From IMG/VR virus record IMGVR_UViG_3300032053_000017, positions 1 through 64,000 of that record: DNA of 64,000 nucleotides. One strand, given 5' to 3'. Each line of letters starts with the position of its first letter. Position 1 is the first letter of the stretch. The DNA is from a virus. Both the position numbers and the translations under genes were made by a program. Below are positions 27,927 through 60,111 of the stretch, piece after piece. The notes beneath the pieces were generated by a model. That model saw nothing but the letters and a program-made list of their open reading frames with translations, was not told the origin of the DNA and did not search any database.

Positions 27927-28296
27927 GGAGGAGACGCCCAGGACGTTGACGAAGCCGCACAGGCAGCTTATGGCGCTACTGACTGGGCTGGGGTTGGAGG
28001 TCAGGTCGGAGGTCCGGGTTGGACGGTACGCACTTGATATCTTGGTGGAGGAGCTCTGGCTTGGCTTTGAGGCTGATGGGACTTCGGCGCATGCTGGTCC
28101 GCGAAAACGCAAGCGGGACGCCGCACGCGACCTATGGATCTATGATAACGCGAGGATCCCGGTGTTGCGCGTGGATGAGGAGATGCTTAGGGCTTCGGCA
28201 TCTGATGCGGCGATGGTGCTTATCGATGACTTTATCAAGCAGCATTCTTCCGATGTAGAGGAGCGAAAGGAGCAGGGGAAATGGGTAGTCGTTTAA
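27910..28296 (+). CDS. DUF559/Vsr-like nuclease
   Basis: A 128-residue PD-(D/E)XK-type protein: TKPHRQLMALL, then VGRYALDILVEEL with a metal-ligand Asp, then FEADGTSAHA and a basic RKRKRDAARD helix, ending VLRVDEEML. This is the Vsr/DUF559 fold. Unlike the two larger relatives in this window it lacks an N-terminal DNA-binding extension. Possibly a mobile or repair nuclease. Confidence 0.6.
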   Translation: MPAWSREETPRTLTKPHRQLMALLTGLGLEVRSEVRVGRYALDILVEELWLGFEADGTSAHAGPRKRKRDAARDLWIYDNARIPVLRVDEEMLRASASDAAMVLIDDFIKQHSSDVEERKEQGKWVVV

Positions 28297-28697
28297 GACA
28301 GCGACACCGTCCGTTGAAGCCAGTCAAGGTTGCTTCTGCTGAGTTCTGTCTTGCTGAGATGCTCCTCATCCAGAAGTCGATCAAGGCGACGATTGACGCG
28401 CGCCTCAAGGGGCATAAGAAGCTGTCGCCATCTTTGAAGATGGTCATGCTGGCCGACGCTATCATCAATGAGGGTTCGGAGCTTAAAGCATGGCTGCCAT
28501 GGAAACTGTGGAGGGGCGACTACGGGCGCGAGCTGACAGAGGGGGAGCGTGAAGGCGTCATCGAGGAGCTCGTTGATCTTCTGCACTTTGTCTTGGAAGG
28601 TTTCATTGACATGGGTATCGATGACCCGAAGTTGCTGACCGGGTACTATCTAGCTAAGGCGAAGATCAATAAGGAGCGTCAGCAGAATGGGTACTAG
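28281..28697 (+). CDS. All-alpha NTP pyrophosphatase, dimeric dUTPase/dCTPase-like
   Basis: A 138-residue helical protein. DAIINEGSELKAWLPWKLWRG and EELVDLLHFVLEGF match the dimeric dUTPase/MazG-type fold: an E-xx-E helix, a WK-W segment, and an E-xx-D helix that together bind Mg-NTP. T4 gp56 (dCTPase-dUTPase) belongs to this group. It should hydrolyse dUTP and/or dCTP to the monophosphate, feeding the hydroxymethylase/thymidylate-synthase-like enzyme at 35403. First gene of the putative base-modification block. Confidence 0.65.
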   Translation: MGSRLRQRHRPLKPVKVASAEFCLAEMLLIQKSIKATIDARLKGHKKLSPSLKMVMLADAIINEGSELKAWLPWKLWRGDYGRELTEGEREGVIEELVDLLHFVLEGFIDMGIDDPKLLTGYYLAKAKINKERQQNGY

Positions 28698-29228: not shown

Positions 29229-30308
29229 GTGCGCAAGAAGATAAACGTAGCTATTGTCGGGGTAGGCAACTGCGCTTCGTCGCTTGTCCAGGGCGTTAAC
29301 TTCTATCGTGATGCCAAGGTTCTCCAGGAGATCCCCGGCCTCATGCATCCGGTCTTGGGTGGGTACAAGATCTCGGACATCAATTTCGTTGCGGCATTTG
29401 ACATCGACGCCAACAAGGTGGGCAAGGATCTGTCTGAGGCCATCTATGCGCCGCCCAACAACACGCTTAGGTTTGCTCAAGGCTCATCAGATGTGCCGTA
29501 CATGGACGTCCCTGTTCAGCGTGGAATGACCCACGATGGGCTGGGCAAGTACCTATCGCAGATCATCAAGAAGTCGACAGCGCCTACGGTTGATGTGGCA
29601 AAGGTGCTGCGGCAGACAAAGACCGATGTCCTCCTCAACTACCTGCCGGTGGGCAGTGAGGAGGCGACCAAGTGGTACATGGAGCAGGCGCTCGAGGCTA
29701 ATGTGGGTGTGGTCAACTGCATCCCGGTCTTCATCGCCAGTTCGCCCTACTGGGGGGCGCGGTTCGAGGAGGCAGGACTGCCCATCATCGGGGACGATAT
29801 TAAGTCTCAGGTGGGCGCGACGATCCTGCACAGGGTGCTGGCGCGTCTCTTTGAGGACCGCGGTGTCCGCATCGACCGGATGTATCAGCTTAACTTCGGC
29901 GGCAACACCGACTTCCTCAACATGCTGGAGCGCGAGCGTTTGGAGTCGAAGAAGATCTCGAAGACGCAGTCGGTTCAGTCGCAGTTGGGAACGGCGCTTC
30001 CCGCTGAGCAGATCCATGTCGGGCCTAGCGACCATATCCCGTGGTTGTTGGATCGCAAGTGGTGCCACATCCGCATAGAGGGTACGACGTTCGGGAACGT
30101 GCCGCTGAACTTGGAGCTGAAGCTGGAGGTCTGGGACTCGCCGAACTCGGCGGGTATCGTGATCGACGCGCTGCGCTGCGTTAAACTAGCGCTTGACCGT
30201 GGCATCGCCGGCCCGCTGATCGCGCCGAGCTCCTACTTCATGAAGAGTCCGCCGACACAATTCACGGACAACGAGGCCCGTGAGGAACTGGAGGAGTGGA
30301 TTGCCTAA
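29229..30308 (+). CDS. ino1: Myo-inositol-1-phosphate synthase
   Basis: Converts glucose-6-phosphate to 1L-myo-inositol-1-phosphate using bound NAD. The 359-residue length matches the short prokaryotic form. The N-terminal [12 protein letters not shown] is the dinucleotide-binding loop. [49 protein letters not shown], and SDHIPWL with a DRKWCHI segment follow the family order. GTG start after AGGAGG. In a host it feeds inositol lipids or signalling compounds. Here it sits inside a DNA-modification block, so inositol phosphate might be a precursor for decorating DNA or for altering the host envelope. Confidence 0.9.
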
Positions 30309-30834
30309 GGGCGTTATTTACGCGCTGATCAATTCCGATACACTTGAGATGCGATATGTCGGCAAGACTTCCAAGACGGCTGAGGCCAGACTTCAGACGC
30401 ATCTCAGGAATGTTCGCTTACGGCGCGGGTGCAATCATCATTTGCAGGCCTGGCTTCGTTCTCTTCTAGTTCCCCCGGCGGTGGTCATTCTCGAGCGTGA
30501 TGTGCTAGATTTGAACGAGGCTGAACGTCGGTGGATTGCAGATCTTCGGGCTCAGGGCGCTCGTTTAACAAATATGACTGATGGTGGCGATGGGTGCGCC
30601 CTTACGGGTCGGCATAATTCGGCAGAGACCGTTGCTAAAATAGTGGCTAAGACGCGCGGCCGAATTGTCTCTGCTGAGGCTAGGGCGCATATTTCGGCAT
30701 CAAGACAAAACGGGCGGCGTAGATTTGGTATGGATGCGCCTTTTTATGGTCGCCGGCATTCGTCGGTAACCAAGGCTAAGATTGCTGCTGCGCTGAAGGG
30801 CCCGCTTAATCCGAATTGGAAAGGCGGTCGTTAA
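30301..30834 (+). CDS. GIY-YIG homing endonuclease with NUMOD3 repeats
   Basis: A 177-residue protein from a TTG preceded by GGAGGAG. The GIY-YIG domain is at the N-terminus ([18 protein letters not shown], then a catalytic-region [15 protein letters not shown]). The C-terminal half has NUMOD3-type DNA-binding repeats ([24 protein letters not shown]). The base composition is richer in A+T than its neighbours, consistent with a mobile gene inserted between ino1 and the next gene; it overlaps both by 1-8 bases. Confidence 0.8.
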
Positions 30835-31856
30835 TGGTTGTGCGTGAGGTAAAAGGCGACCCGAGGACCCACCGCCGCGCGTTCAGGGAGTTCGTGCGGT
30901 ATGAGTTGCTCTGCGGTGGCCCTGACCCGCATATGAAGTTGGCCCAGTCGATCGCCGGGCAACTGAGCGCGGATCTCATGCAGCGGGCCTGGTTTATCGG
31001 CTGCTACATCGGGCCGTACAACGTGCCGACCGGTGAGGCTATATTCGCTGATTGGTCACACCCTGTGCGCGCGCTGCATGAGCCGTGGGATTTCGAGGAC
31101 TGGATCCGAAGCAATTGGAGCAATTTGGTGCTGCGGCGCGAGCGCAGGCCGGTGCGGTCGCCGCGCAAGTTTGCCGAGCACATGCTCGACTACGCGGACT
31201 GGCTGACGCGGCCCGGCGGCTTTGAGGCGCTGGCACGGGCAGAGAGCTTCGAGGAGAGTTTTGAGATCGTGCGGCAGGTCCGGTACAACGGCCGGTACGC
31301 TACGATGAAGCTGTATGAGACGCTTCGGCGAACATGCGGGCTGCCGAAGTACGAGTTCACGGACATCAGGCCAGCAGGCGGCTGGTCGCCGCGGCTGGCG
31401 CTCTCTTGGCTCTATCCTGACGACGCGGTTGAACTGAACGGTAACGACAGCGCGTTCAACCTCACGATGGCACAGTGGGACGCCGAGCTCTTGCGCTATG
31501 AGTTGAAAATGGGAGGGATTGACCTCGACTGGTTCAACCTTGAGGTCATGCTCTGTGACTACAAACAGGCCTACGACGGGCGGCAATACCCGGGGCGGGC
31601 GCACGACTCGGAGCTGGGGCACTTGCGAAAGGTGCAGGCGGCATTTCCAAATACGGTGTTCAGAACGTTGAACACACGTTCGCTGCTGTTTCCAAGCTGG
31701 GCCCTCGGTGAGGTGCAGGGATGGGAGGGTCGGCGTGACGAGTGTAGTGCCGTGCTGGGTGAGCACGGGTACACATGGAGTGACGCGATATACGACTACG
31801 TACGAACGCGTGAAACCGGGGACTTTGTCAATCCCGTGGTGAGGAGCGGTTCATGA
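30834..31856 (+). CDS. Putative DNA base hypermodification protein (ADDT/aGPT-PPlase-like)
   Basis: A 340-residue protein. RYELLCGGPDPHMKLAQ, then WFIGCYIGPYNVPTGEAI and a long helical middle resemble the family named amino acid:DNA transferase or alpha-glutamyl/putrescinyl-thymine pyrophosphorylase, known from phages that hypermodify thymine. In those phages it acts after a DNA kinase has phosphorylated hydroxymethyluracil. That kinase family is encoded two genes downstream (32502). I recognise the family by pattern and context, not by a catalytic motif, so the exact branch is unsure. ATG overlaps the GIY-YIG stop (TAATG). Confidence 0.55.
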   Translation: MVVREVKGDPRTHRRAFREFVRYELLCGGPDPHMKLAQSIAGQLSADLMQRAWFIGCYIGPYNVPTGEAIFADWSHPVRALHEPWDFEDWIRSNWSNLVLRRERRPVRSPRKFAEHMLDYADWLTRPGGFEALARAESFEESFEIVRQVRYNGRYATMKLYETLRRTCGLPKYEFTDIRPAGGWSPRLALSWLYPDDAVELNGNDSAFNLTMAQWDAELLRYELKMGGIDLDWFNLEVMLCDYKQAYDGRQYPGRAHDSELGHLRKVQAAFPNTVFRTLNTRSLLFPSWALGEVQGWEGRRDECSAVLGEHGYTWSDAIYDYVRTRETGDFVNPVVRSGS

Positions 31857-32311
31857 AGGTAACACAGATCACAGACGGACTCTATATCAGGGGCAAGTTC
31901 TTTGACATCCAGCAGCAGGATAAGCGTGTCGCTCTGCGTAAACTGGGTATCACATATGTGGTGAACCTTGTTCGACACGAGGATTGGGACCTCTACCAAA
32001 GCGCCGAGATCATGTACGAGCACATCCCGATCTCGGACGGGCGACTGGCAACGCCTGTCGCAGATAAATTGACGGTTCTTGCGAGGCGTCTGGCCATCCA
32101 CATCAAGCACGGGGGAGGGGTGCTCGTCTTCTGTAACGCGGGACGAAACCGTTCGGGGTTGCTTGCGGCTCTGATACTGCATGAGCTCTACCCCATATCA
32201 GGTAACACGGCGCTTGGCTGGGTGCGCAGGGCACGGCCGCGGGCGGTGGCAAACGAACACTTCGCGCGGTATCTTAACAGTGTAGGGATCAATACGGAGG
32301 CGGTGCTATGA
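31853..32311 (+). CDS. Dual-specificity/tyrosine phosphatase-like protein, copy 1
   Basis: A 152-residue Cys-dependent phosphatase. The signature loop VFCNAGRNRSG (Cys-x5-Arg, about residues 99-107) and an upstream general-acid-type Asp segment (ISDG) are present. Such enzymes remove phosphate from proteins, lipids or nucleotides. It lies between the ADDT-like gene and the DNA kinase, so it might act on a phosphorylated base or nucleotide intermediate; that is speculative. A second homologue lies at 54237. Confidence 0.75.
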   Translation: MKVTQITDGLYIRGKFFDIQQQDKRVALRKLGITYVVNLVRHEDWDLYQSAEIMYEHIPISDGRLATPVADKLTVLARRLAIHIKHGGGVLVFCNAGRNRSGLLAALILHELYPISGNTALGWVRRARPRAVANEHFARYLNSVGINTEAVL

Positions 32312-32505
32312 TTAGGGATAACCCCGCGGTTCAAATTGCTAGTGGGGTAAAGCTAGAGATGGCGTATGGGCAGCATACGGTGATTCAGGCGTGTCCCTCA
32401 ATGGCCGATGTGTATCGTGCTGACCGGATAATCAACCTCGAGACGGGCGTCGTGCTGAAGGACCGTTGGGGTTCAGTGGGGTTGCCGAGGAAGTACGCGC
32501 GATGA
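32308..32505 (+). CDS. Hypothetical small protein
   Basis: A 65-residue protein overlapping both neighbours by four bases (ATGA). Beta-prone, no recognisable motif. It is co-translated with the phosphatase and the DNA kinase. Confidence 0.5.
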   Translation: MIRDNPAVQIASGVKLEMAYGQHTVIQACPSMADVYRADRIINLETGVVLKDRWGSVGLPRKYAR

Positions 32506-33065
32506 TCGTCAACCTGCGCGGACCTTCAGGAAGCGGTAAGTCCTACGTGGGACACCAGCTGTTGGACACATTTGGCGGCGAGCCTATCTTTGAGGATGGC
32601 TGGAACAAGTTCTCGCCGCGACTGATAGGCTACAAGCTGCCAGACAACTTCTACCTGCTCGGCTCGTACCGAGCAAAGGGTGGAGGATTGGATACGCTCT
32701 CGCCGCACGACAGGTCGGCACTGTTGCCGCTCATTGAGCGCTATGCTGCCATGGGGCATATCTTTTTCGAGGCGCTCGTGATCTCGAGCACTGTGCCATC
32801 ATACATAGAGATGGCGCAGCGACTGAAAATGCCATTCATCTTCGCATTCCTGGACACGCCGGTGGATCTCTGCATCCAGCGGATCTATCAGCGAAACGGC
32901 GGGAAACCTATCAAGGAGGATCCTGTCAAGGGGCACCACAAGTATATGACCCGGGTGGCTCAGCGGCTCCGTGATGCGGGCATGAAGACCGTGACCATCG
33001 ACTATAAGCGCTCGTTCGAAGAGGTCGTTAACCTCTTTCGCGCCGAGGGCTGGTATCCACTGTGA
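32502..33065 (+). CDS. P-loop kinase of the 5-hydroxymethyl-dU DNA kinase family
   Basis: A 187-residue kinase. MIVNLRGPSGSGKS gives Walker A at residues 7-14. LLGSYRAKGGGLDTLSPHD, HIFFEALVISS and FAFLDTPVDLCIQRI follow in the order typical of 5-HMU DNA kinases. These transfer phosphate from ATP to the hydroxymethyl group of 5-hydroxymethyluracil in DNA, priming it for further modification. The substrate here could be hydroxymethylcytosine instead, given the Asp-type hydroxymethylase at 35403. The ATG overlaps the previous stop. Confidence 0.75.
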   Translation: MIVNLRGPSGSGKSYVGHQLLDTFGGEPIFEDGWNKFSPRLIGYKLPDNFYLLGSYRAKGGGLDTLSPHDRSALLPLIERYAAMGHIFFEALVISSTVPSYIEMAQRLKMPFIFAFLDTPVDLCIQRIYQRNGGKPIKEDPVKGHHKYMTRVAQRLRDAGMKTVTIDYKRSFEEVVNLFRAEGWYPL

Positions 33066-33262
33066 CCGACGCTGAGCTTATAGCCCTGGCTGCCCTTGTA
33101 TGGGTTGAGACGCAAGGGATGATCGCGTTCAATGAGGAGAGGGCGCATGAGGGGTACGCTCCGGCTTATGGTGAACTTCTTTTTGTAACAAACCCTTCAA
33201 CATTGAAACTGCGGAAGGAACTAGAGCGGCGGGGCGTGCTGAAGGAGACTGATGACAGTTAA
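33062..33262 (+). CDS. Hypothetical small protein
   Basis: A 66-residue helical protein with a GTG start overlapping the kinase stop and an 11-base overlap with the next gene. No family recognised; its role is presumably tied to the flanking modification genes by co-translation. Confidence 0.5.
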   Translation: MTDAELIALAALVWVETQGMIAFNEERAHEGYAPAYGELLFVTNPSTLKLRKELERRGVLKETDDS

Positions 33263-34343
33263 ACTAACTGGCGTCGGGGTTCATATCTACTCTGGTGGCT
33301 TCACCATTGGTATGGAGCAGGCCGGCGTTGAGGTTTTGGCACAGCTCGAGGAGCTTGACGCGGGGTTTGAGACGGCGCAGTTAAACCTCGCTACACGGAT
33401 GGATCATACTCTAGCGCCGTATGAGGACTGGCCGCTTAGGACGTATCAGAATAGAGTCAACATCGTGTATGCGAACCCCCCGTGTGCGCCGTGGAGTTTG
33501 GCAGGAGGTCGGAAGGGTATGGATGATCCGCGTATCGTCTATGCCATGGATTCGCTGGATGCGGGGCTGAAACTGAATGCGGACTTTATTGTGATCGAGT
33601 CGGTATGCCGCGCATGGTCGCCTACAGGCGGTCGGCCGTTGTTTGAGCGGTTTGCGCATAAGGCCATGAGGGATGGTTATGCCGTGACCATATTCTTCAC
33701 GAACGCGGTCTTGCATGGGGCGCCACAGTTGCGGCAACGGTTTCACTTTATCGCGCACAAGTATGAGATCAGGGATCTCTTCACCATAGCGCCCCTTACG
33801 TACGGTGACGTGTCTACAGTGTGGGATACCATTGGTGACCTTGAGGACCGTCCCGATGATGAAGCGTGGGGGCACAGTCGCACTGTTCCAGATGAGCGCG
33901 AGCTAAACGTGATACGCGACCTGCAGCAGGGCGAAAGTTGGGGTGATGCTTGGCGGCGCGTGATGGCGCGGGGGTTGCCCGCGAAGCCCGCACGGTTTAT
34001 CGCGCATAGACTGATCTACGACGCGCCGTGTGGGACCATCTTGGATATCGGTGCGATGGTGCACCCGACACAGGACCGAGTGCTGACGCTACGTGAGGGC
34101 GCGCGGCTGTGCGGCTACCCCGACGACTTCCAGTTCGCGCGGGGTAAACGTGGTTTCCACAACTCGGACGTGACACAGGCTGTCCTGCCGTTTGTGGGTC
34201 GGTACCTTGGTGCGGTATTCTCTCTAGGGATGAGGCGTGGACTACGGGTCGATGGGCGTGACGGCATAGAGGTCATCGACCTGCGGTCGTTTGCCAAGCC
34301 CTTCATGCCGAAGAAGTTCATAAGCGCTGGGAGGCCGGTGTAG
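33252..34343 (+). CDS. Cytosine-C5 DNA methyltransferase homologue
   Basis: A 363-residue protein. It has motif I-like GVGVHIYSGGFTIGMEQAG, motif IV ANPPCAPWS with the nucleophilic Cys near residue 78, motif VI VIESV (normally ENV), motif VIII QLRQRFHF and the C-terminal motif X VGRYLGAVFSLG. It should flip out cytosine and act on C5. The missing Asn of ENV and the weakened FxGxG motif leave activity open. Lying in the base-modification block, it may methylate, or help form, another C5-substituted cytosine. Confidence 0.75.
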   Translation: MTVKLTGVGVHIYSGGFTIGMEQAGVEVLAQLEELDAGFETAQLNLATRMDHTLAPYEDWPLRTYQNRVNIVYANPPCAPWSLAGGRKGMDDPRIVYAMDSLDAGLKLNADFIVIESVCRAWSPTGGRPLFERFAHKAMRDGYAVTIFFTNAVLHGAPQLRQRFHFIAHKYEIRDLFTIAPLTYGDVSTVWDTIGDLEDRPDDEAWGHSRTVPDERELNVIRDLQQGESWGDAWRRVMARGLPAKPARFIAHRLIYDAPCGTILDIGAMVHPTQDRVLTLREGARLCGYPDDFQFARGKRGFHNSDVTQAVLPFVGRYLGAVFSLGMRRGLRVDGRDGIEVIDLRSFAKPFMPKKFISAGRPV

Positions 34344-35401
34344 TGGACTACGGACCATACATCGTACTCGAGGGTCCTGACGGCACTGGGAAGACAACCC
34401 TTGCCAACGAGATCATCAGGCGTACGGGCGCGAATTATGTCCACTGCGGGCCGCCAGACGGGCCGGCGCTCGAGTACTACCTTCGGAAGCTTCGCTCTGT
34501 CAAGGGTCCTGCGGTGGTGGATCGGCTGCACGTCGGCAGCTACTGCTATGGCATCGCCTTCAGGCACGCCCCGGACCTGACGGAGTTTGAGAACTGGCTG
34601 ATCGAGGGGTTCCTTTACGCGCATGGCGTGCAGCTTATAAACTGTGAGCTGCCGGCTGAGATGGTCGACAAGAACTTGGCGCGGGGACCCGATAACGCGG
34701 ACGCGGCGATATATGAGAATCCAGCGAAGCGTGAGCTTCTGCGGGAGCTCTATAAGGAGAGGATGCTGGCGACCGAGCTGCCGCTCGTGCACTATGACTA
34801 CACCTCCTACTGTGGTGCATTTGAGGATATCGCGAGCTACATCGGTAACGCTCTGCGCATAGATACTCGGGCGCATGAGAGCTTGACTGAGCTGGATGCG
34901 ATTGGAAATATGGTCAACCCACGGCATATCTTGATCGCTGATCGGCCGTCATGGTATGACAGCACGGAAAACAGGCTGCGTAAGCAGGGTCTACTGCCGA
35001 CATGGCGTGTTGAGTTCATGAAGCGGTTTAACCGACGATTCGGGGGACTGGTGCTTAACTCAACGTCTGGTCGGTACATGTACATGGCGCTTCAGAGCGC
35101 CCAACTCAGATTGCGCGACTTTGCGATGTTCAACTCGGTCCAGGGCGACGGGCGGCATCTGCCTGAGACAATGTGGGGGCTGCCGCTCAAGTTTTGGACA
35201 CAGGCGGGTGATATTGTGGCATTGGGGCGTAACGCAGGTAGCGAACTGGCACGTGCCAATGTGCCCTACCGGGCCGTGCCGCACCCGCAGCATGTCAGAC
35301 GCTTTCACTACAAGGATGTTATGCGCTATGGGGCGGCATTGACTGACCCGAAGCAGCCCTGGGAGTGTGAGACTAGCTACTGCAAGACGGGAGAGTGGTA
35401 G
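34343..35401 (+). CDS. Thymidylate-kinase-like dNMP kinase fused to UDG-fold domain
   Basis: A 352-residue fusion. Residues 1-175 are a dNMP kinase: EGPDGTGKTT (10-19), the DRLHVGSYCYG segment, and a Lid-like RGPDNADAA. Residues about 190-352 resemble the uracil-DNA-glycosylase superfamily fold (ILIADRPSWYDS, VLNSTSGRYMYMAL, DIVALGRNAGSELA, then AVPHPQHVRR). It probably phosphorylates the monophosphate made by the hydroxymethylase. The second domain may bind or excise unwanted bases, or only recognise the modified base. GTG start overlapping the methyltransferase stop (TAGTG). Confidence 0.65.
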   Translation: MDYGPYIVLEGPDGTGKTTLANEIIRRTGANYVHCGPPDGPALEYYLRKLRSVKGPAVVDRLHVGSYCYGIAFRHAPDLTEFENWLIEGFLYAHGVQLINCELPAEMVDKNLARGPDNADAAIYENPAKRELLRELYKERMLATELPLVHYDYTSYCGAFEDIASYIGNALRIDTRAHESLTELDAIGNMVNPRHILIADRPSWYDSTENRLRKQGLLPTWRVEFMKRFNRRFGGLVLNSTSGRYMYMALQSAQLRLRDFAMFNSVQGDGRHLPETMWGLPLKFWTQAGDIVALGRNAGSELARANVPYRAVPHPQHVRRFHYKDVMRYGAALTDPKQPWECETSYCKTGEW

Positions 35402-35402: not shown

Positions 35403-36266
35403 ATGAACCCTACTATATTCGCTGGTGAGGACGCGACAGGACTTTGGCTCAGGGCGCTTAGAGGACTGATCAACGAGGGCGAGAGGGTCAGTCCGCGTGG
35501 GATGGGGACGCTTGAGCTGCGGCCGGCTATCTTGTCATTGCGTGACCCGCGGAAGCGGTGGGTTCAGGTGCCAGAGCGTAAGCTGTCAAAGGCGTTGGGC
35601 TACATCGAGGCGTTTCTACTGTTGACTGGTATGAGTGATGCGGAGCTGCTGGTGAAGGCCGCGCCGCAGTATGCTAACTTTGTCAACCCGGAGACCAAGA
35701 CGCTTGACGGGGCGTATGGGCCGCGTGTCGGTCCGCAACTTGACTACATCCGTGAGCTACTGAGGCGTGACCCGGACACCAGGCAGGCCGTCGTCACTAT
35801 CTTTGGACCAGCTGACCATCATGAGTCGCGGGACGTGCCGTGTACGGTCAGTTTGCACTTCATGGTGCGAGATGGGGCGCTTGAGCTTATCGTCTACATG
35901 CGGTCTAACGATGTCTGGCTAGGATGGCCTTACGATGTCGTGATGTTTACGGTGTTGCATGAGGCGTTGGCTGTTGATCTGGGACTGGCGCTTGGGCAGT
36001 ACACACACGTGGCTGGGTCGCTTCACCTCTATGATAGAAACAGCGACAAGGCCGTTAGGATCGCGGCGGAGTACGGCGGAAGATGGACTGAATCTGACGT
36101 GCCAATGCCAGAGGGCGCGACGCTTGAGGAACTGCAGGGTTATGCGCGCGCGCTGCTTTCAGCGTATAGGCGTGACCTGACGGTGAAAGATGTTTTGGGC
36201 AGTTTTAGCAGACTGCCAGCATTCTTCAAGGCCGCTGCTCGTGAGATGCTGGAGAAGGAGGCATAG
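35403..36266 (+). CDS. Thymidylate-synthase-family pyrimidine hydroxymethylase (dCMP type likely)
   Basis: A 287-residue TS-fold enzyme using methylene-tetrahydrofolate. Cys147 in DVPCTVSLHF aligns with the catalytic Cys, MRSNDVWLGWPYDVV with the substrate-binding segment, and SLHLY with the late His-x-Tyr. Where TS has Asn177 (GLPFN) this protein has Asp178 (GWPYD), as in T4 dCMP hydroxymethylase, so the substrate is predicted to be dCMP and the product hydroxymethyl-dCMP. The His after the catalytic Cys is Thr, also unlike TS. Preceded by the dNMP kinase, which would carry the product on. Confidence 0.75.
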   Translation: MNPTIFAGEDATGLWLRALRGLINEGERVSPRGMGTLELRPAILSLRDPRKRWVQVPERKLSKALGYIEAFLLLTGMSDAELLVKAAPQYANFVNPETKTLDGAYGPRVGPQLDYIRELLRRDPDTRQAVVTIFGPADHHESRDVPCTVSLHFMVRDGALELIVYMRSNDVWLGWPYDVVMFTVLHEALAVDLGLALGQYTHVAGSLHLYDRNSDKAVRIAAEYGGRWTESDVPMPEGATLEELQGYARALLSAYRRDLTVKDVLGSFSRLPAFFKAAAREMLEKEA

Positions 36267-36268: not shown

Positions 36269-36553
36269 ATGCCGCACATTCCAGAGCGACGACGTGACGA
36301 TATTGACTTGTCCAGGGAAGGACGCAACAGCGCTGGGGAGTGCGATGGGCCAGGTGAGCTCAACTGGGCATTGACGGAGGTTGTTATCGGCTACCTTCTG
36401 GCGAAGGGCCTGAGCTATAGAACGTGCAACGACATTGTCGGCGCGCTGGACAACGCCAAGGACGAGTTCCGCCGGCTTGTACAGCATCCATACGAGGACC
36501 GGAAGATAGTGGAGAATGGGAATGCCTATCCCAAGGAGGTCTTGTCATGCTGA
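36269..36553 (+). CDS. DUF6899-like protein
   Basis: A 94-residue protein. MPHIPERRR, GELNWALTEVVIGYL, and HPYEDRKIVENG-AY match a small phage family often encoded next to thymidylate-synthase-type genes. Its function is not known. It starts three bases after the hydroxymethylase. Confidence 0.65.
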   Translation: MPHIPERRRDDIDLSREGRNSAGECDGPGELNWALTEVVIGYLLAKGLSYRTCNDIVGALDNAKDEFRRLVQHPYEDRKIVENGNAYPKEVLSC

Positions 36554-36999
36554 ACCTCTATCTAGCAGGCCCTATAACGGGCTGCACCTACAAGGGGGCG
36601 ACCAACTGGCGCGCGTCGTTTGCCGAGCGGGTTAAGGAGCTCGGGTACAACGTGTACAGCCCGATGCGGGGCAAGGAGCACCTGTCGCGGGTCAAACGGC
36701 TCAGGCCGCACGGTTATGACAACCCGACGTCGATTGACAAGGCGATCATGCGTCGTGATTCATTTGATGTCAGGCGCGCTGACGTCGTATTGGCTAACTT
36801 GCATGGCGCCGAGATCGTGAGTATCGGGACGATGTTCGAGCTCGCCTGGGGATACATCCTCGGGAAGTTCGTTCTCGTTGTCATGGATGATACGGACAAG
36901 ATACACGACCACGCGTTCGTTGAGCAGTCGGCCAGCACAATCGTTGAGTCGCTCGAGGACGCTGAGCGGGTGCTTGAGGTCTTGGCGGGTAGCCTCTAA
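36547..36999 (+). CDS. Nucleoside 2-deoxyribosyltransferase-like protein
   Basis: A 150-residue protein. LYLAGPITGCTYKGATNWR at the N-terminus, then RDSFDVRRADVVLANLHGAEIVSIGTMFELAWGY, is the deoxyribosyltransferase fold, with the likely catalytic Glu in MFELAWGY. It could exchange or strip bases on deoxynucleosides or nucleotides, fitting the nearby precursor enzymes. The ATG at 36547 is chosen; the same frame is open upstream but overlaps the previous gene. Confidence 0.75.
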   Translation: MLNLYLAGPITGCTYKGATNWRASFAERVKELGYNVYSPMRGKEHLSRVKRLRPHGYDNPTSIDKAIMRRDSFDVRRADVVLANLHGAEIVSIGTMFELAWGYILGKFVLVVMDDTDKIHDHAFVEQSASTIVESLEDAERVLEVLAGSL

Positions 37000-53839: not shown

Positions 53840-54244
53840 ATGCCAGCACTAAGTTTGAGCAAGTGTTCACAGCTGCTTGAGGCAGCCAGTTTCGAGCCCC
53901 TGCCTGGACGTACGTCGGGCGAGTCGGTAACTGCCCTCTGTATGGCGGCCAGCATGCATAAGTCGGCGGTCGAGAACGGATTGACTGCTGAGGTTCTGCT
54001 TGAGCTACGGACCAGTCGTTTTCCCATGCTGACCAAGACGGTCGAGGGCGGCTTCAAGCACATGATCTCAGTTGACAGCGGTGCCGTCTATGCTGAGCTT
54101 TGGAGCAAGGGCGACAACTGGTACGCGGTCACGGATGCCGCGATCAACCTAGTCAAGGGGATCCGCAAGGGCATGGATGCGCGAGATGCGGTGCCTCTGT
54201 TTCTGAAGGCCGTGTTCCCTCGAAAGCGTTGCTGCGGTGGATGA
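53840..54244 (+). CDS. Hypothetical protein
   Basis: A 134-residue protein. ATG at 53840 with GGAGGG upstream lies just after the structured leader. Helical N-terminus, beta segment ISVDSGAVYAELWSKGDNWYAV, and a basic Cys-containing end (FPRKRCCGG). First gene after a probable promoter. Function unknown. Confidence 0.55.
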   Translation: MPALSLSKCSQLLEAASFEPLPGRTSGESVTALCMAASMHKSAVENGLTAEVLLELRTSRFPMLTKTVEGGFKHMISVDSGAVYAELWSKGDNWYAVTDAAINLVKGIRKGMDARDAVPLFLKAVFPRKRCCGG

Positions 54245-54749
54245 GCCGGTAGTACTACTTAGCAGTGGGGTTGGCGTCTACGGTATAACGCAGGGCCTCT
54301 ATCAGTCGAGCGAGCCCATGGTGGACGCAGACTGGGACAAACTGTGGGAGCTGGCAGACGTGATCGTTGGGCTTAACGCGGCGGTAGTCAGCGAGGTGCC
54401 GACCAACAAGATGTTGGTCAAGTGGCCTATCGAGGATGGTCCGCTGCCGAACCTTGAGGTACTGCGCGGGCTGGTGGAGCTGCTGGCCGAGCTGCTAGAG
54501 AACGAGAAGCGTATCGTGGTATTCTGCGGCGCGGGTGCAAATAGGTCGGGACTGATCACAGCATTGGTCGTCCGCCAGCTAACAGGTGAGACTGGGCGCA
54601 GGGCCGCAGATCATGTGCGGACACGTCGACCGGGAGCGCTTATAAGCGGGACATTCAATATGTACCTCAACGCCTTGCCCGACCTGGAGGAAGAACTGGT
54701 AGGGGCAGGGCCTGAGACGCCCCAAGAGGGCGAGATCGAGGGGATCTAA
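54237..54749 (+). CDS. Dual-specificity phosphatase-like protein, copy 2
   Basis: A 170-residue Cys-phosphatase. VFCGAGANRSGLITAL carries Cys-x5-Arg (about residue 100), and WPIEDG provides a possible general acid. It parallels the 31853 protein in layout (PLSDG/WPIEDG, loop, then a basic RRPGA segment) and is a paralogue. Acidic C-terminal tail. GTG start overlapping the previous gene. Confidence 0.75.
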   Translation: MDEPVVLLSSGVGVYGITQGLYQSSEPMVDADWDKLWELADVIVGLNAAVVSEVPTNKMLVKWPIEDGPLPNLEVLRGLVELLAELLENEKRIVVFCGAGANRSGLITALVVRQLTGETGRRAADHVRTRRPGALISGTFNMYLNALPDLEEELVGAGPETPQEGEIEGI

Positions 54750-56106: not shown

Positions 56107-56194
56107 GGACGGTTGGCCGAGCGGACTATGGCGCCGCGGTGCTAACGCGGAGGTCCTTCGGGGCCCGGGAGTTCGAATCTCTCACCGTCCGCCA
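56107..56194 (+). tRNA. tRNA-Ser (GCT)
   Basis: Acceptor GGACGGT/ACCGTCC, anticodon loop GTGCTAA giving GCT for AGC/AGT, long variable arm as expected for Ser, T loop TTCGAAT, encoded CCA end. Confidence 0.9.
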
Positions 56195-56202
56195 ATTTTA
56201 AC

Positions 56203-56300
56203 GGGGAGTGGTGTAACAGGGCACACTGGTCTTTGTAGGGCCAGAGGAGATGGGTAAAACGTCTGGGGCAACCCAGGGACCGGCCCATCCTTCCCCGCCA
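56203..56300 (+). tRNA. Atypical tRNA-Thr (TGT) with 31-nt T loop
   Basis: GGGG/CCCC acceptor core, G discriminator and CCA are present, and the anticodon loop TTTGTAG reads TGT. The T stem GATGG/CCATC closes a 31-base loop that contains CTGGG-GCAA-CCCAG, a GNRA-capped hairpin, and no TTCRA. A normal tRNA-Thr (TGT) lies at 56633. It may be a disrupted gene, an RNA with an inserted element, or a tRNA mimic. Confidence 0.6.
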
Positions 56301-56323
56301 TATAGGTGAGAGGAACGATCAAG

Positions 56324-56464
56324 ATGACAGGTCTGTGTGGCAGGTGTAATCATCCGGCCATCATGAAGATGACGGACAGCAATGCTACGGTCAAGGTCTG
56401 CGCGTACCACTGGCACGTGTTGTCTGGGCAAGGCTGGAAGCAGGTTTACCCGAAGGGGCGGTAG
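56324..56464 (+). CDS. Small zinc-finger-like protein overlapping tRNA-Asp
   Basis: A 46-residue ORF with AGAGGAA before its ATG. CGRCNHP, then VCAYHWHV, suggests a CxxC...C...H metal site. Its last codons and stop lie inside the 5' acceptor strand of tRNA-Asp, so RNA processing and translation of this message would compete. Confidence 0.5.
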   Translation: MTGLCGRCNHPAIMKMTDSNATVKVCAYHWHVLSGQGWKQVYPKGR

Positions 56465-56529
56465 CTCAGCGGCAGAGCGCCCGGCTGTCGACCGGGAGGT
56501 CGCGGGTTCGATGCCCGTCCGCCCCGCCA
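56455..56529 (+). tRNA. tRNA-Asp (GTC)
   Basis: Acceptor GGGGCGG/CCGCCCC, anticodon loop CTGTCGA, T loop TTCGATG, CCA encoded. Overlaps the end of the small ORF upstream. Confidence 0.9.
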
Positions 56530-56532
56530 TAC

Positions 56533-56622
56533 TGGGGAGTGGCCGAGTCTGGATTATGGCGACCGTCTCGAAAACGGTTGGTCCGAGAGGGCACGGGGGT
56601 TCGAATCCCTCCTCCCCAGCCA
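56533..56622 (+). tRNA. tRNA-Ser (CGA)
   Basis: Acceptor TGGGGAG/CTCCCCA, anticodon loop CTCGAAA giving CGA (TCG codon), long variable arm, CCA encoded. Confidence 0.9.
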
Positions 56623-56632
56623 TATTAACAAT

Positions 56633-56709
56633 GCTGGAGTAGCTCAAGTGGGGAGAGCGGCTGTCTTGTAAACAGCGGGTTGGGGGTTCGAGGCCCTCCT
56701 CCAGCTCCA
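56633..56709 (+). tRNA. tRNA-Thr (TGT)
   Basis: Acceptor GCTGGAG/CTCCAGC, anticodon loop CTTGTAA, normal T arm, CCA encoded. Normal counterpart of the atypical Thr gene upstream. Confidence 0.9.
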
Positions 56710-56718
56710 TAATAGCGG

Positions 56719-56794
56719 TGCGGGGTAGAGCAATGGTTAGCTCGACGGCCTCATAAGCCGTAGATTGAGGGTTCGAATCCCTCCCCCGCTACCA
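56719..56794 (+). tRNA. Initiator-type tRNA-Met (CAT), copy 1
   Basis: Position 1 T faces 72 T (unpaired, as in bacterial initiators). D stem GAGC/GCTC has A11-T24, and the anticodon stem ACGGC/GCCGT has three G-C pairs next to the CTCATAA loop. CCA encoded. Confidence 0.85.
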
Positions 56795-56807
56795 AATAAT
56801 AATCAGC

Positions 56808-56884
56808 GCCGAGGTAGCTCAGCATGGTAGAGCGCCTGGTTGAAGGCCAGGGCGTCAGCGGTTCAACTCCGTTCCTCGGCACCA
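56808..56884 (+). tRNA. tRNA-Phe (GAA)
   Basis: Acceptor GCCGAGG/CCTCGGC, anticodon loop TTGAAGG, CCA encoded. Confidence 0.9.
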
Positions 56885-56886
56885 CA

Positions 56887-56963
56887 CGCGGGGTAGAGCG
56901 TTGGTCGCTCGCCAGCTTCATACGCTGGAGGTAGTTGGGTTCGATTCCCTTCCCCCGCTACCA
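56887..56963 (+). tRNA. Initiator-like tRNA (CAT), copy 2
   Basis: Acceptor GCGGGG/CCCCGC with C1 facing T72 unpaired, A11-T24 D stem, anticodon loop TTCATAC, CCA encoded. Initiator-like rather than elongator Met or lysidine-type Ile, though the anticodon stem has only two G-C pairs at 29-31. Confidence 0.8.
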
Positions 56964-56964
56964 T

Positions 56965-57033
56965 GGGGTCGGTAGCTCAGTGGTCAGAGCGCGGTCGCAC
57001 CGAGGACGCGGGTTCGAATCCCGCCCCTCCCCA
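56965..57033 (+). pseudogene. Degenerate tRNA
   Basis: D arm GCTC/GAGC and T arm GCGGG-TTCGAAT-CCCGC are intact, but only 17 bases separate them (about 23 expected), so the anticodon arm is truncated. The acceptor pairs only GGGG with CCC(T), and no CCA is encoded. Identity cannot be read. Confidence 0.6.
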
Positions 57034-57046
57034 TTTTAACAAGCAA

Positions 57047-57125
57047 GGGCCCGTAGCTCAGTTGGAATCAGAGCGCCGGTCTTCGAAACCGGGCGGCGGG
57101 GGTTCGAGTCCCTCCGGGCCCGCCA
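57047..57125 (+). tRNA. tRNA-Arg (TCG)
   Basis: Acceptor GGGCCCG/CGGGCCC, anticodon loop CTTCGAA giving TCG (CGA codon), CCA encoded. Confidence 0.9.
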
Positions 57126-57143
57126 TTAAACATAGGTGAATCT

Positions 57144-57557
57144 GTGCATAGGAAAGGAAACCCGAATCATCCCGCAATGTGCCAGTGTCCTTGGCACGGT
57201 GGATGTCGAAAGCCAGCGACGTTGGCTAAGACGGGCGTTCATTTGCGGCGTGGTAACGGGCATCATCGCATCGATTGCCTATGTCCGTTTTGTATTCCGA
57301 AGTCTGGCGATAAGAGCCCTACGTGGAAAGGCGGACAAGGGAAGTTTCAGTGGGAATGTAATGGATGGAAGGCCGCACGGCGGGTGGTCTGGGCGCGGGA
57401 TAAAGTGTGCCGTATATGCGGCGGGCCGCCTCGGAAGCGGCGGTTGGATGTTCATCATATCATCGCTCGACGCGATGGCGGGACTAACGATCCGAGCAAT
57501 CTGATCGGGGTTCATCAGGGCCGATGTCACAAGTCGGTCGAGACGTACAAAAACTGA
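57144..57557 (+). CDS. HNH endonuclease in tRNA cluster, copy 1
   Basis: A 137-residue probable homing nuclease with a GTG start after AGGTGA. N-terminal CQCPWHGGC knuckle, then CLCPFC, and the HNH core CRICGGP...LDVHHIIARRDGGTNDPSNLIGV...CHK with the catalytic His pair and late Asn/His. Its N-terminal C-CPWH block is shared with the 59039 HNH. It ends two bases before tRNA-Val, an insertion between tRNAs. Confidence 0.85.
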   Translation: MHRKGNPNHPAMCQCPWHGGCRKPATLAKTGVHLRRGNGHHRIDCLCPFCIPKSGDKSPTWKGGQGKFQWECNGWKAARRVVWARDKVCRICGGPPRKRRLDVHHIIARRDGGTNDPSNLIGVHQGRCHKSVETYKN

Positions 57558-57559
57558 AT

Positions 57560-57635
57560 AGGGGCGTAGCTCAATTGGAAGAGTGCCTGTTTTACAAGCA
57601 GGAAGTTGGGGGTTCGATTCCCTCCGCCCTTACCA
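57560..57635 (+). tRNA. tRNA-Val (TAC)
   Basis: Acceptor AGGGGCG/CGCCCTT with one G-T, anticodon loop TTTACAA, CCA encoded. Directly abuts the HNH stop. Confidence 0.9.
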
Positions 57636-57643
57636 GATATCGC

Positions 57644-57706
57644 AGGGGCTGGCAAGTCCTGGCTCTCACCAGGCACCGGGTGCCTACGTATAAGGCGTCA
57701 GCCCCT
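57644..57706 (+). other. Cloverleaf-like RNA element without CCA
   Basis: AGGGGCTG (57644-57651) pairs with CAGCCCCT (57699-57706), enclosing CCTGG/CCAGG, CAC/GTG and CCT/AGG hairpins. The three-armed shape with an 8-bp closing stem resembles a tRNA skeleton, but there is no TTCRA loop and no CCA. Possibly a decayed tRNA or part of an attachment region. Confidence 0.4.
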
Positions 57707-57710
57707 ATCA

Positions 57711-57780
57711 TGGGACATTTCGGTGGACATTTTGTCTGTCGAGTAGGTTCGAATCAGATAGGGACACAACACGGGACATT
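57711..57780 (+). repeat. GGGACATT-type short repeats around a tRNA-like GGTTCGAATC
   Basis: GGGACATT, GGACATTTT, GGGACAC and GGGACATT occur within 70 bases, flanking GTAGGTTCGAATC. Spaced short repeats beside a tRNA T-arm sequence resemble integrase arm sites and a tRNA-derived core, but no integrase gene is visible. Confidence 0.35.
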
Positions 57781-57782
57781 AT

Positions 57783-57857
57783 GGGCTGGTAGCTTAATGG
57801 GAGAGCGGGTGCCCTGCAAGCATTCAGATGTCGGTTCGAGTCCGACCCGGTCCACCA
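57783..57857 (+). tRNA. tRNA-Ala (TGC), C33
   Basis: Acceptor GGGCTGG/CCGGTCC with wobbles, anticodon loop CCTGCAA, CCA encoded. Position 33 is C instead of the near-universal U. Confidence 0.8.
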
Positions 57858-57870
57858 CCTTAACAAATGT

Positions 57871-57947
57871 GGCTCTCTAGCCCAACTGGTAGAGGCATCT
57901 GCCTTAGAAGCAGATCAGTCAGAGTTCGAATCTCTGGGGAGCCACCA
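57871..57947 (+). tRNA. tRNA-Leu (TAG), short variable loop
   Basis: Acceptor GGCTCTC/GGGAGCC, anticodon loop CTTAGAA, CCA encoded. The variable loop is only about 5 bases, whereas bacterial tRNA-Leu normally has a long arm. Confidence 0.85.
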
Positions 57948-57950
57948 TAA

Positions 57951-58026
57951 GCGACGGTAACTCAATTGGTAGAGTGTCTGCCCTCCAAGCAGGTCGTTGC
58001 GGGTTCGAGTCCCGCTCGTCGCTCCA
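57951..58026 (+). tRNA. tRNA-Gly (TCC), C33
   Basis: Acceptor GCGACGG/TCGTCGC, anticodon loop CCTCCAA, CCA encoded; C at position 33. Confidence 0.85.
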
Positions 58027-58028
58027 AC

Positions 58029-58103
58029 GCGGGGGTAGCTCAGCGGCAGAGCGCCTGCTTGCCATGCAGGAGGTCGTGGGTTCGAGCCCCATTCCCCGCT
58101 CCA
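58029..58103 (+). tRNA. tRNA-Gly (GCC)
   Basis: Acceptor GCGGGGG/TCCCCGC, anticodon loop TTGCCAT, CCA encoded. Confidence 0.9.
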
Positions 58104-58104
58104 G

Positions 58105-58179
58105 AGGCGGGTAGCTCAGGGGTAGAGCAACGGCCTTATAAGCCGTACGTCGAAGGTCCGATTCCTTCCCCGCCCACCA
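58105..58179 (+). tRNA. tRNA-Ile (TAT)
   Basis: Acceptor with A1 facing C72 then GGCGGG/CCCGCC, anticodon loop CTTATAA, T loop TCCGATT, CCA encoded. Reads ATA directly, so it does not depend on lysidine synthase. Confidence 0.85.
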
Positions 58180-58180
58180 T

Positions 58181-58256
58181 GGGCCGGTAGCTCAGAGGAT
58201 AGAGCGGCAGTTTCCTAAACTGCGCGGCGCGGGTTCGAGTCCCGCTCGGCCTTCCA
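58181..58256 (+). tRNA. tRNA-Arg (CCT)
   Basis: Acceptor GGGCCGG/TCGGCCT, anticodon loop TTCCTAA (AGG codon), CCA encoded. Confidence 0.9.
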
Positions 58257-58257
58257 T

Positions 58258-58333
58258 AGACGGGTAGCTCAACAGGCAGAGCAGGAGTCTGATACGCCCC
58301 AGGTTGGAGGTTCGAGTCCTCCCCCGTCTACCA
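58258..58333 (+). tRNA. tRNA-Ile (GAT)
   Basis: Acceptor AGACGGG/CCCGTCT, anticodon loop CTGATAC, CCA encoded. One A-C mismatch in the anticodon stem. Confidence 0.8.
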
Positions 58334-58334
58334 C

Positions 58335-58409
58335 ACCAGGGTGGCGCAACGGTAGCGCGGCTCCCTGTTAAGGAGACGGTTGCAGGTCCGAATCCTGCCC
58401 CTGGTGCCA
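58335..58409 (+). tRNA. tRNA-Asn (GTT)
   Basis: Acceptor ACCAGGG/CCCTGGT, anticodon loop CTGTTAA, T loop TCCGAAT, CCA encoded. Confidence 0.88.
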
Positions 58410-58410
58410 T

Positions 58411-58484
58411 GGCCCACTCGTTTAACGGCAGGACATCTCCCCCTCAAGGAGAAGACGTCGGTTCGACCCCGGCGTGGGCTACCA
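58411..58484 (+). tRNA. tRNA-Glu (CTC), C33
   Basis: Acceptor GGCCCAC/GTGGGCT, Glu-type D arm, anticodon loop CCCTCAA with C33, CCA encoded. Confidence 0.85.
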
Positions 58485-58540
58485 TTCCTTAATAAATAAC
58501 GGTCATAACTGTAAGAATAGTCGGCCATAGCTTTACAATC

Positions 58541-58616
58541 GGCGGCGTAGCCCAATTGGCAGAGGTACCGGGTCCAAACCCCGGGGATCAGAGTTCGAAT
58601 CTCTGCGTCGCCACCA
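58541..58616 (+). tRNA. tRNA-Leu (CAA), short variable loop, C33
   Basis: Acceptor GGCGGCG/CGTCGCC, stem CCGGG/CCCGG with loop TCCAAAC (anticodon CAA), CCA encoded. D and T arms closely match the TAG tRNA-Leu at 57871, supporting Leu. A one-base shift would read CCA (Trp), but a normal tRNA-Trp is present at 58702. Confidence 0.7.
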
Positions 58617-58618
58617 AT

Positions 58619-58694
58619 GGGAGTGTAGCTCAACGGCTAGAGCAGCTGCCTTTTAAGCAGAGGGATGGGGGTTCGAGTCCCTTCGCTCCCACCA
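58619..58694 (+). tRNA. tRNA-Lys (TTT)
   Basis: Acceptor GGGAGTG/CGCTCCC, anticodon loop CTTTTAA, CCA encoded. Confidence 0.9.
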
Positions 58695-58701
58695 TAATGA
58701 T

Positions 58702-58777
58702 ACGGACGTAGCTCAGAGGCCAGAGCGGTTGTCTCCAAAACAACTGGTCGGAGGTTCGACTCCTCTCGTCCGTGCCA
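58702..58777 (+). tRNA. tRNA-Trp (CCA)
   Basis: Acceptor ACGGACG/CGTCCGT, stem GTTGT/ACAAC with loop CTCCAAA, CCA end encoded. Confidence 0.9.
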
Positions 58778-58778
58778 A

Positions 58779-58856
58779 GGGGGCGTAGCTCAGTTTGGTT
58801 AGAGCGGCGGACTCTTAATCCGCGCGGCGGGGGTTCGAATCCCTCCGCCCCTACCA
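58779..58856 (+). tRNA. tRNA-Lys (CTT)
   Basis: Acceptor GGGGGCG/CGCCCCT, anticodon loop CTCTTAA, CCA encoded. Confidence 0.9.
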
Positions 58857-58859
58857 TAT

Positions 58860-58935
58860 CAGCGCGGTAGTGTAAGTGGCAGCACGAGAGGTTGTGGCCC
58901 TCTTAGAGTGGGTTCGAATCCCACCCCGCTGACCA
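58860..58935 (+). tRNA. tRNA-His (GTG)
   Basis: Acceptor CAGCGCG/CCCGCTG with one C-C mismatch, anticodon loop TTGTGGC, CCA encoded. I see no clear extra G at -1. Confidence 0.85.
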
Positions 58936-58942
58936 TCATTCA

Positions 58943-58952
58943 GGTATTCTAT
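58943..58952 (+). promoter_or_regulatory. Recurring motif GGTATTCTAT, copy 2
   Basis: Exact 10-mer ending two bases before the acceptor stem of tRNA-Gln. Too close to the mature 5' end for a normal promoter, so a processing or overlapping signal is an alternative. Confidence 0.3.
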
Positions 58953-58954
58953 AC

Positions 58955-59028
58955 TCGGGGGTAGGCTAGCGGTAGACCGCCTGACTCTGGATCAGGAAAG
59001 AGAGGTTCGAATCCTCTTCCCCGAGCCA
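58955..59028 (+). tRNA. tRNA-Gln (CTG)
   Basis: Acceptor TCGGGGG/TCCCCGA, anticodon loop CTCTGGA, CCA encoded. The CCA runs into the ribosome site of the following HNH gene. Confidence 0.88.
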
Positions 59029-59038
59029 AGGAGATGAT

Positions 59039-59410
59039 ATGTGCGATGGTTGCGTATTCCATAACGGGCGCAGAGACCACAAGCCGGGGTGTCGATGTCC
59101 CTGGCATAGTGGGCATTCCGAACGCGCATTGAAGAATAATCCGCGGCATGCCCGTCCGCTCGCGGAGTTACTTGTGGAGAACGGCCAGGCGGGTAAGGCT
59201 CAGCGCATAAAGGCTAGGCTTCTCAAGGAGGGGCTTATCAAGGACCGCTGTGAGATATGTGGACTTGGGCCGGAGTGGCAGGGTCAGCAACTGGTGCTGC
59301 CGTTGGATCATCGCAATGGCAATAGGCGGGACTGGCGATTGGAGAATCTTCGGGTCCTCTGTCCCAACTGTCATACGCAGACGGCTACATTTTCTGGGCG
59401 TAAACTATGA
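59039..59410 (+). CDS. HNH endonuclease in tRNA cluster, copy 2
   Basis: A 123-residue nuclease with AAGGAGATGAT before the ATG. N-terminal CRCPWHSGH matches the CQCPWHGGC block of the 57144 HNH. CEICGLGP, then LPLDHRNGNRRDWRLENLRVLCPNCH is the HNH core. A helical segment in the middle (LAELLVENGQAGKAQRIKARLL) may bind DNA. Probably a homing nuclease. Confidence 0.85.
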   Translation: MCDGCVFHNGRRDHKPGCRCPWHSGHSERALKNNPRHARPLAELLVENGQAGKAQRIKARLLKEGLIKDRCEICGLGPEWQGQQLVLPLDHRNGNRRDWRLENLRVLCPNCHTQTATFSGRKL

Positions 59411-59580
59411 GCTGTACGCCGGGATACAACAAGCGGGAGCGGGCGCTGCTTTTCGCGCTTCGCCATCTGATAGGTAAGAACCACCCGCTCGACCCTGAAA
59501 GGTGCGAGGGATGCATGGAGATTGCCGGGTTCCTCACTATACCAGGGTATGAGTCGGTAAACAAGCAGGATGTCCATTGA
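59407..59580 (+). CDS. Small hypothetical protein
   Basis: A 57-residue ORF whose ATG overlaps the HNH stop (ATGA) and whose stop overlaps the next ATG. A CEGC pair in the middle and many charged residues. Coupled layout supports it; function unknown. Confidence 0.5.
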   Translation: MSCTPGYNKRERALLFALRHLIGKNHPLDPERCEGCMEIAGFLTIPGYESVNKQDVH

Positions 59581-59909: not shown

Positions 59910-59910
59910 T

Positions 59911-59988
59911 CGGGGTGTAGCTCAGTTAGGTCAGAGCACGCGGCCTGGGACCGCGGGGTCGGGAGTTCGAATCTCTCCGCCCCGACCA
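59911..59988 (+). tRNA. tRNA-Pro (TGG), C33
   Basis: Acceptor CGGGGTG/CGCCCCG, stem CGCGG/CCGCG with loop CCTGGGA, CCA encoded; C at 33. Confidence 0.85.
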
Positions 59989-59995
59989 TAACAAG

Positions 59996-60005
59996 GGTAT
60001 TCTAT
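59996..60005 (+). promoter_or_regulatory. Recurring motif GGTATTCTAT, copy 3
   Basis: Exact 10-mer eight bases after tRNA-Pro and immediately before the structured RNA element. Confidence 0.3.
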
Positions 60006-60006
60006 A

Positions 60007-60103: not shown

Positions 60104-60111
60104 ATGATAAT

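Follow-up and report, generated by a model that had tools for sequence, protein, structure and literature searches.

A predicted dCMP hydroxymethylase in a phage gene cluster that looks built for cytosine decoration

A dCMP-type active site in a thymidylate synthase fold

The window, i.e. the whole stretch of viral DNA analysed (64,000 nucleotides of a 105,972-base record), contains an open reading frame for 287 aa with zero internal stops, whose product is very probably a phage dCMP hydroxymethylase. Judging from its residues, this enzyme would form 5-hydroxymethyl-dCMP with methylene-THF, using Cys147 and a water molecule activated by Asp144. The unusual gene cluster around it has the look of a system for adding another group, possibly the sugar alcohol inositol, to the altered cytosine, disguising the viral DNA. 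The new part is this gene context of the hydroxymethylase.

The protein matched Pfam Thymidylat_synt (E=7e-20) and the PHROG family 'thymidylate synthase' (E=1e-47), and is the single thymidylate synthase (TS) family match in the record. It was aligned with E. coli ThyA, T4 gp42 and SPO1 gp29, whose sequences were taken from their own records. Its key residues are Glu69, Tyr105, Arg127, Asp144, Cys147, Thr148, Ser168, Asp170 and Asp178. Cys147 occupies the column of the catalytic Cys146 of E. coli TS and Cys148 of T4 gp42, and together with Glu69 provides the catalytic Cys and Glu of the TS fold. Asp178 falls on Asn177 of E. coli TS, Asp179 of T4 gp42 and an Asn of SPO1 gp29; Thr148 falls on His147 of E. 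coli TS, Thr of T4 gp42 and Asn of SPO1 gp29; and Asp144, three residues upstream of Cys147, falls on T4 Asp145 and E. coli Leu143. The first-pass annotation had noted the 31-residue gap between Cys147 and Asp178, as in E. coli TS and T4 gp42, and the loss of the His after the catalytic Cys (PCT). Both observations were confirmed by the alignment, which placed Asp178 at the specificity position with respect to T4 gp42 and SPO1 gp29. The two positions chosen in that annotation are the top two of MetaGPA, a comparison of contigs with and without modified DNA in which TS-family positions 177 and 147 ranked highest for modified cytosine (PMC8670742).

By its database names the protein would be a thymidylate synthase. 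We find an ordinary thymidylate synthase, or a dUMP hydroxymethylase such as SPO1 gp29 (own record; PMC5175136), hardly credible, since the protein scores far under the cut-offs of the NCBIfam TS models and the TS set Asn177/His147/Leu143 was not found in it, with Asp178/Thr148/Asp144 instead. SPO1 gp29 shares the TS fold family and the Asp three before the Cys with the window enzyme, but has Asn both at the base-specificity position and after the Cys; this Asn at 177 was not found in the window enzyme, which has Asp178.

Asp178 alone had been taken as the mark of a hydroxymethylase. The cytosine preference stands, while the hydroxymethyl product is not implied by the Asp alone, because the Asn-to-Asp change at 177 by itself turns thymidylate synthase into a dCMP methylase that makes 5-methyl-dCMP (according to a citation in PMC8670742). 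A dCMP methylase of the XP12 type, which would convert dCMP to 5-methyl-dCMP by hydride transfer, would agree with that conversion and with the Gly found in place of Ser94 of the T4 signature. It is nevertheless improbable, as Asp144 stands where TS has Leu, the columns of E. coli Trp80 and Trp83 hold Ala and Phe, the nearest structure is that of a hydroxymethylase, and the neighbour genes are of a kind that requires a hydroxymethyl group.

In the ternary structure of the T4 dCMP hydroxymethylase, Asp145, three before the Cys, was proposed as the water activator and hydroxymethylase signature in place of the Leu of TS, and the D145N mutant produced no 5hm-dCMP (PMC6400193). The second half of this signature is Ser/Thr at 94 (PMC6400193). 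The equivalent of T4 Ser94-Tyr96 in the window enzyme is Gly103-Ala104-Tyr105, with no Ser/Thr two residues before the active-site Tyr. SPO1 gp29 has Ala in the same column; this half of the T4 signature is therefore not general, and Ser/Thr at 94 is treated here as a trait of the T4-like group rather than as hydroxymethylase-defining. The equivalents of T4 Asp145, Cys148, the Thr after the Cys, Ser169 and Asp179 are all present.

The nearest known enzyme by both sequence and predicted fold is MilA, the CMP 5-hydroxymethylase of mildiomycin biosynthesis (PDB 5JNH, 5B6D). It was the best PDB sequence match (E=6e-31) and the best fold match of the AlphaFold2 model (pLDDT 93.5; TM 0.84-0.87), with thymidylate synthases at 0.55-0.67 among the matches listed. 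Both enzymes have Cys-Thr, Asp three before the Cys and Asp at the base-specificity position. The CMP preference of MilA is due to Ala176 and Lys133, which are Ser and Arg in deoxy enzymes (PMC5175136). This CMP-type pair of MilA/BcmA was not found in the window enzyme, whose Ser168 and Arg127 align with the deoxy-type residues; therefore dCMP is the expected substrate. A MilA-like CMP hydroxymethylase that gives free hydroxymethylcytosine, the PF05014 protein being its MilB-like N-hydrolase partner, would suit the closeness of MilA and the PF05014 gene that follows the enzyme here and in loci L002 and L003. Such an arrangement is very improbable in view of the Ser168/Arg127 pair, the absence of a good PDB match for the PF05014 protein, and neighbours that are DNA-modification genes, whereas the context of MilA is antibiotic synthesis. 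The call of a dCMP hydroxymethylase made in the first-pass annotation is thus supported, at the level of sequence and model, by Asp144, by MilA as the nearest structure and by the hydroxymethyl-requiring neighbours (5-hmdU-kinase-like protein and ADDT). Asp144 and Ser168/Arg127 are additional to the evidence given there.

Residue signatures across the TS-fold family

The residue after the Cys and residue 177 were compared in 38 dereplicated aligned rows. The combination was Thr/Asp in 21 and Asn/Asn in 13, and the other four were one Asn/Asp, one His/Asp, one Leu/Asp and E. coli ThyA itself (His/Asn). This pairing is a signature of the whole family and not chance. Asp at -3 from the Cys was present in 31 of the 34 dereplicated enzymes, including that of the window. 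In the tree, the window enzyme grouped with those of L002, L003 and other Asp177 enzymes, and T4 gp42 and SPO1 gp29 lay in other clades; labelling the tree with residue 177 required three changes in all. MW202510 ('pyrimidine hmase', Manatee Spring), with Asp177, served as a comparison sequence only. If the proposed cytosine route is right, the base that a phage modifies could be read from residue 177 (with 147) of its sequence.

Two enzymes in the survey deserve separate mention. The one in L126 (1930-3039) carries Asp177 within the SPO1-like Asn177 clade, an apparent separate switch to cytosine, and a C5-cytosine-methyltransferase (C5-MTase) homologue lies about 6 kb off. The Asp177 enzyme in L054 (14513-15529) has Asn rather than Asp three before the Cys; because T4 D145N is inactive, its product is uncertain and it may not be a hydroxymethylase.

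Gene cluster around the hydroxymethylase

The genes from MIPS (inositol-3-phosphate synthase) to the hydroxymethylase form a same-strand run in the order of Table 1, and on the 3' side a small ORF separates the hydroxymethylase from the PF05014 gene.

Table 1. Predicted features of the hydroxymethylase cluster (window coordinates)
Feature	Position	Strand	Basis
All-alpha dUTPase_2-type pyrophosphatase	28281..28697	+	PF08761 E=1.4e-9
MIPS, inositol-3-phosphate synthase	29229..30308	+	Full length vs TIGR03450
GIY-YIG/NUMOD3 homing endonuclease, between MIPS and ADDT	30280..30834	+	Pfam, PHROG
ADDT, amino acid:DNA transferase / aGPT-Pplase2 family	30816..31856	+	PF18724 E=5e-9, over gathering score; alignment
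Dual-specificity-type (DSP) phosphatase	31853..32311	+	PF00782
5-hmdU DNA kinase-like P-loop kinase	32502..33065	+	PF18748 E=2.7e-9, over gathering score
C5-cytosine-methyltransferase-like protein	33252..34343	+	PPC, ESV, QxRxR kept; Tyr13 for first Gly of FxGxG
dNMP-kinase-like P-loop protein + C-terminal domain	34343..35401	+	PHROG thymidylate kinase E=4e-10
dCMP-type TS-fold pyrimidine hydroxymethylase (predicted)	35403..36266	+	Residues, Pfam, PDB match, predicted fold
Nucleoside 2-deoxyribosyltransferase/N-hydrolase family	36547..36999	+	PF05014 E=1e-13; near hydroxymethylase in L002, L003 too

From its family, the dUTPase_2-type protein may supply dUMP/dCMP, and the dNMP-kinase-like protein is likely a (hm)dCMP kinase. 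In the listed loci, L126 excepted, homologues of the latter sit immediately 5' of the TS-fold gene. For its C-terminal domain (34880-35401), the L010 homologue matched the UDG superfamily weakly (E=0.003), and the window's own domain gave no match; no convincing solved structure was found for this domain or for ADDT. The homing endonuclease is probably a passenger. Its gene has no counterpart in the L010 cassette.

The PF18748 kinase and PF18724 ADDT adjoin a source of the hydroxymethyl base, as a kinase/ADDT pathway requires. Neither a Tet/JBP oxygenase nor an HMUDK-helical protein was detected by local profiles in the window or the rest of the record. Since the Pfam Tet/JBP search gave no match even in control genomes, the Tet/JBP negative is carried by the local profile, with which this gene was detected elsewhere among the loci. 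A Tet/JBP oxygenase was thus rejected as the hydroxymethyl-base source, and the dCMP-type enzyme is the sole source found; therefore the hydroxymethyl group used by the kinase and ADDT would come only from that enzyme, the record being possibly incomplete.

Thymidine hypermodification pathways reportedly use a 5-hmdU DNA kinase together with ADDT. The window cassette resembles them in its PF18748 kinase and PF18724 ADDT, and differs in the dCMP-type hydroxymethylase, MIPS, DSP phosphatase and C5-MTase-like gene, as well as in the lack of a detected HMUDK helical protein. The cassette is, on balance, probably a kinase/ADDT hypermodification system moved from thymidine and directed at cytosine. 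In the proposed route, Cys147 would attack C6 of dCMP, methylene-THF would donate the one-carbon unit, and addition of the Asp144-activated water to the exocyclic methylene would yield 5-hydroxymethyl-dCMP. Phosphorylation by the adjacent kinase would bring this product closer to the triphosphate, and the phage polymerase would insert the hydroxymethyl nucleotide into DNA. There the upstream kinase and ADDT would modify the hydroxymethyl group in the manner of thymidine hypermodification, with cytosine as the base. MIPS and a phosphatase might supply inositol as the possible attached group. T4 gp42 likewise adjoins a DNA-decoration pathway; its partner is a glucosyltransferase, whereas the window enzyme, of a separate clade and with Gly103 for T4 Ser94, is accompanied by the kinase, ADDT and MIPS. 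If true, kinase/ADDT chemistry known from thymine extends to cytosine, and could supply enzymes to label hydroxymethylcytosine.

Elsewhere in the window, a second DSP-type phosphatase (54237-54749) lies distant from the cassette, and 26 tRNA genes were found within about 4 kb (56107-60203).

MIPS and ADDT in viral loci

Loci were obtained from six IMG/VR scans, in which the query was the hydroxymethylase once, ADDT twice, MIPS twice and the C5-MTase homologue once, using thresholds set by ourselves and run at a single setting (5 and 10 kb; 1e-4 to 1e-6; dereplication cut-offs). MIPS was found at 80 loci in viral contigs, 58 after dereplication. ADDT lay within 5 kb of MIPS in 43 of these 58, and ADDT, a TS-fold gene or a Tet/JBP oxygenase was present in 50, while 7 had no marker gene within 5 kb. 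The MIPS-ADDT linkage was seen in several gene orders and across three hydroxymethyl-base sources, with statistics that take no account of shared ancestry. The kinase accompanied ADDT within 5 kb in 21/22 dereplicated ADDT loci and a separate DSP phosphatase in 19/22; in L020 and L034, the ADDT and DSPc Pfam matches fall within a single fused protein. In 31 of the 40 Tet/JBP-oxygenase loci, MIPS is typically followed directly by a small gene whose product has an HAD-like FDIDGV motif. Such genes are called phosphatases because of the motif, as neither of the two tested was recognised by Pfam.

The shared cassette genes of L010 and L055 follow the window's order. The slot that the GIY-YIG gene takes up between MIPS and ADDT is filled in L010 by SDR and Gfo/Idh/MocA genes and in L055 by a HAD-family gene; a radical-SAM gene lies there in L011 and an FkbM methyltransferase in L012. 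The Pfam ADDT model misses both L010 and L055, where comparison with the window's ADDT did reveal the gene, so an absence of ADDT by the Pfam model is soft. In the T4-like group, a gp42-like Asp177 enzyme lies near MIPS, and part of this group carries a further gene, for which the L060 member gave a weak match to the T4 glucosyltransferase. L002 and L003, whose enzymes are closest to that of the window, keep the kinase, hydroxymethylase and PF05014 gene, but no MIPS or ADDT was found in their records; the cassette is therefore accessory. One scan of genome contigs found no ADDT relative in bacterial genomes.

Inositol is put forward tentatively as the attached group, on the strength of this linkage. 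A comparable degree of belief goes to a reading that keeps the hydroxymethylase, in which an amino acid is added by the kinase and ADDT, and the role of MIPS lies elsewhere in inositol metabolism. Amino-acid transfer is what gave ADDT its name, and MIPS also exists in phages without ADDT, including Stenotrophomonas and Caulobacter phages; in the stretch examined, Stenotrophomonas phage IME-SM1 and Caulobacter phage Cr30 have MIPS without an annotated hydroxymethylase. Against amino-acid attachment stand the linkage across several gene orders and three hydroxymethyl-base sources, the DSP phosphatase by ADDT or the HAD-like gene after MIPS in most loci, and the SDR and Gfo/Idh/MocA genes of L010. 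If inositol is the group, it may join the known DNA decorations, and the modification could explain restriction resistance of such phage DNA; the MIPS linkage offers a direct target for mass spectrometry. No description of inositol on phage DNA was found in the titles and abstract openings listed, which, at partial literature coverage, is weak evidence of novelty.

The HMUDK helical-domain protein was seen in L042, L053, L044, L056, L020, L034 and L011, which are of the Asn177 type or have no TS-fold gene in view, and once alongside an Asp177 enzyme (L128). PF18723 was confirmed for the L053 protein.

A C5-MTase homologue often accompanies dCMP-type enzymes

A C5-MTase homologue often accompanies dCMP-type enzymes. 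By locus type, it was present in 21/28 Asp177, 0/17 Asn177 and 0/40 Tet/JBP loci, and in 5/32 with no base-forming gene in view, counts that take in loci found via the C5-MTase search. In a dereplicated set from which that search's loci had been removed, along with the window, L002 and L003, the homologue lay within 10 kb in 6 of 11 Asp177 and 0 of 12 Asn177 representatives (Fisher p=0.005, kinship ignored). Window-like homologues keep PPC, ESV and QxRxR, but have Tyr or Phe in place of the first Gly of FxGxG. More distant homologues occur in L045, L051, L039 and L041, and another subfamily in the T4-like group.

CmoX, a DNA cytosine carboxymethyltransferase (PDB 8YF3; PMC12783734), is likewise a phage C5-MTase fold tied to cytosine hypermodification. 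Its key Arg in motif X is replaced by HNSD in the window homologue; therefore Cx-SAM use is not supported, and CmoX-type carboxymethylation was rejected. SAM motif I of the homologue is altered. A shortened motif I loop was also rejected: the predicted loop length (DSSP string) is about normal, and the first-Gly substitution is therefore the better description. A broader and more doubtful proposal is that many phages decorate 5-hydroxymethylpyrimidines with inositol or a derivative that their own MIPS and phosphatase produce. In the window phage the decorated base would be cytosine, reached via a thymine-derived kinase/ADDT pair, with the C5-MTase fold as a cytosine-specific partner, possibly without normal SAM use.

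The C5-MTase ORF of L127 (8681-10903) is interrupted precisely at its catalytic NPP|C motif by a long insert, the ends of which are intein-like: it starts with CFSADTVV and ends in VVHN before the Cys.
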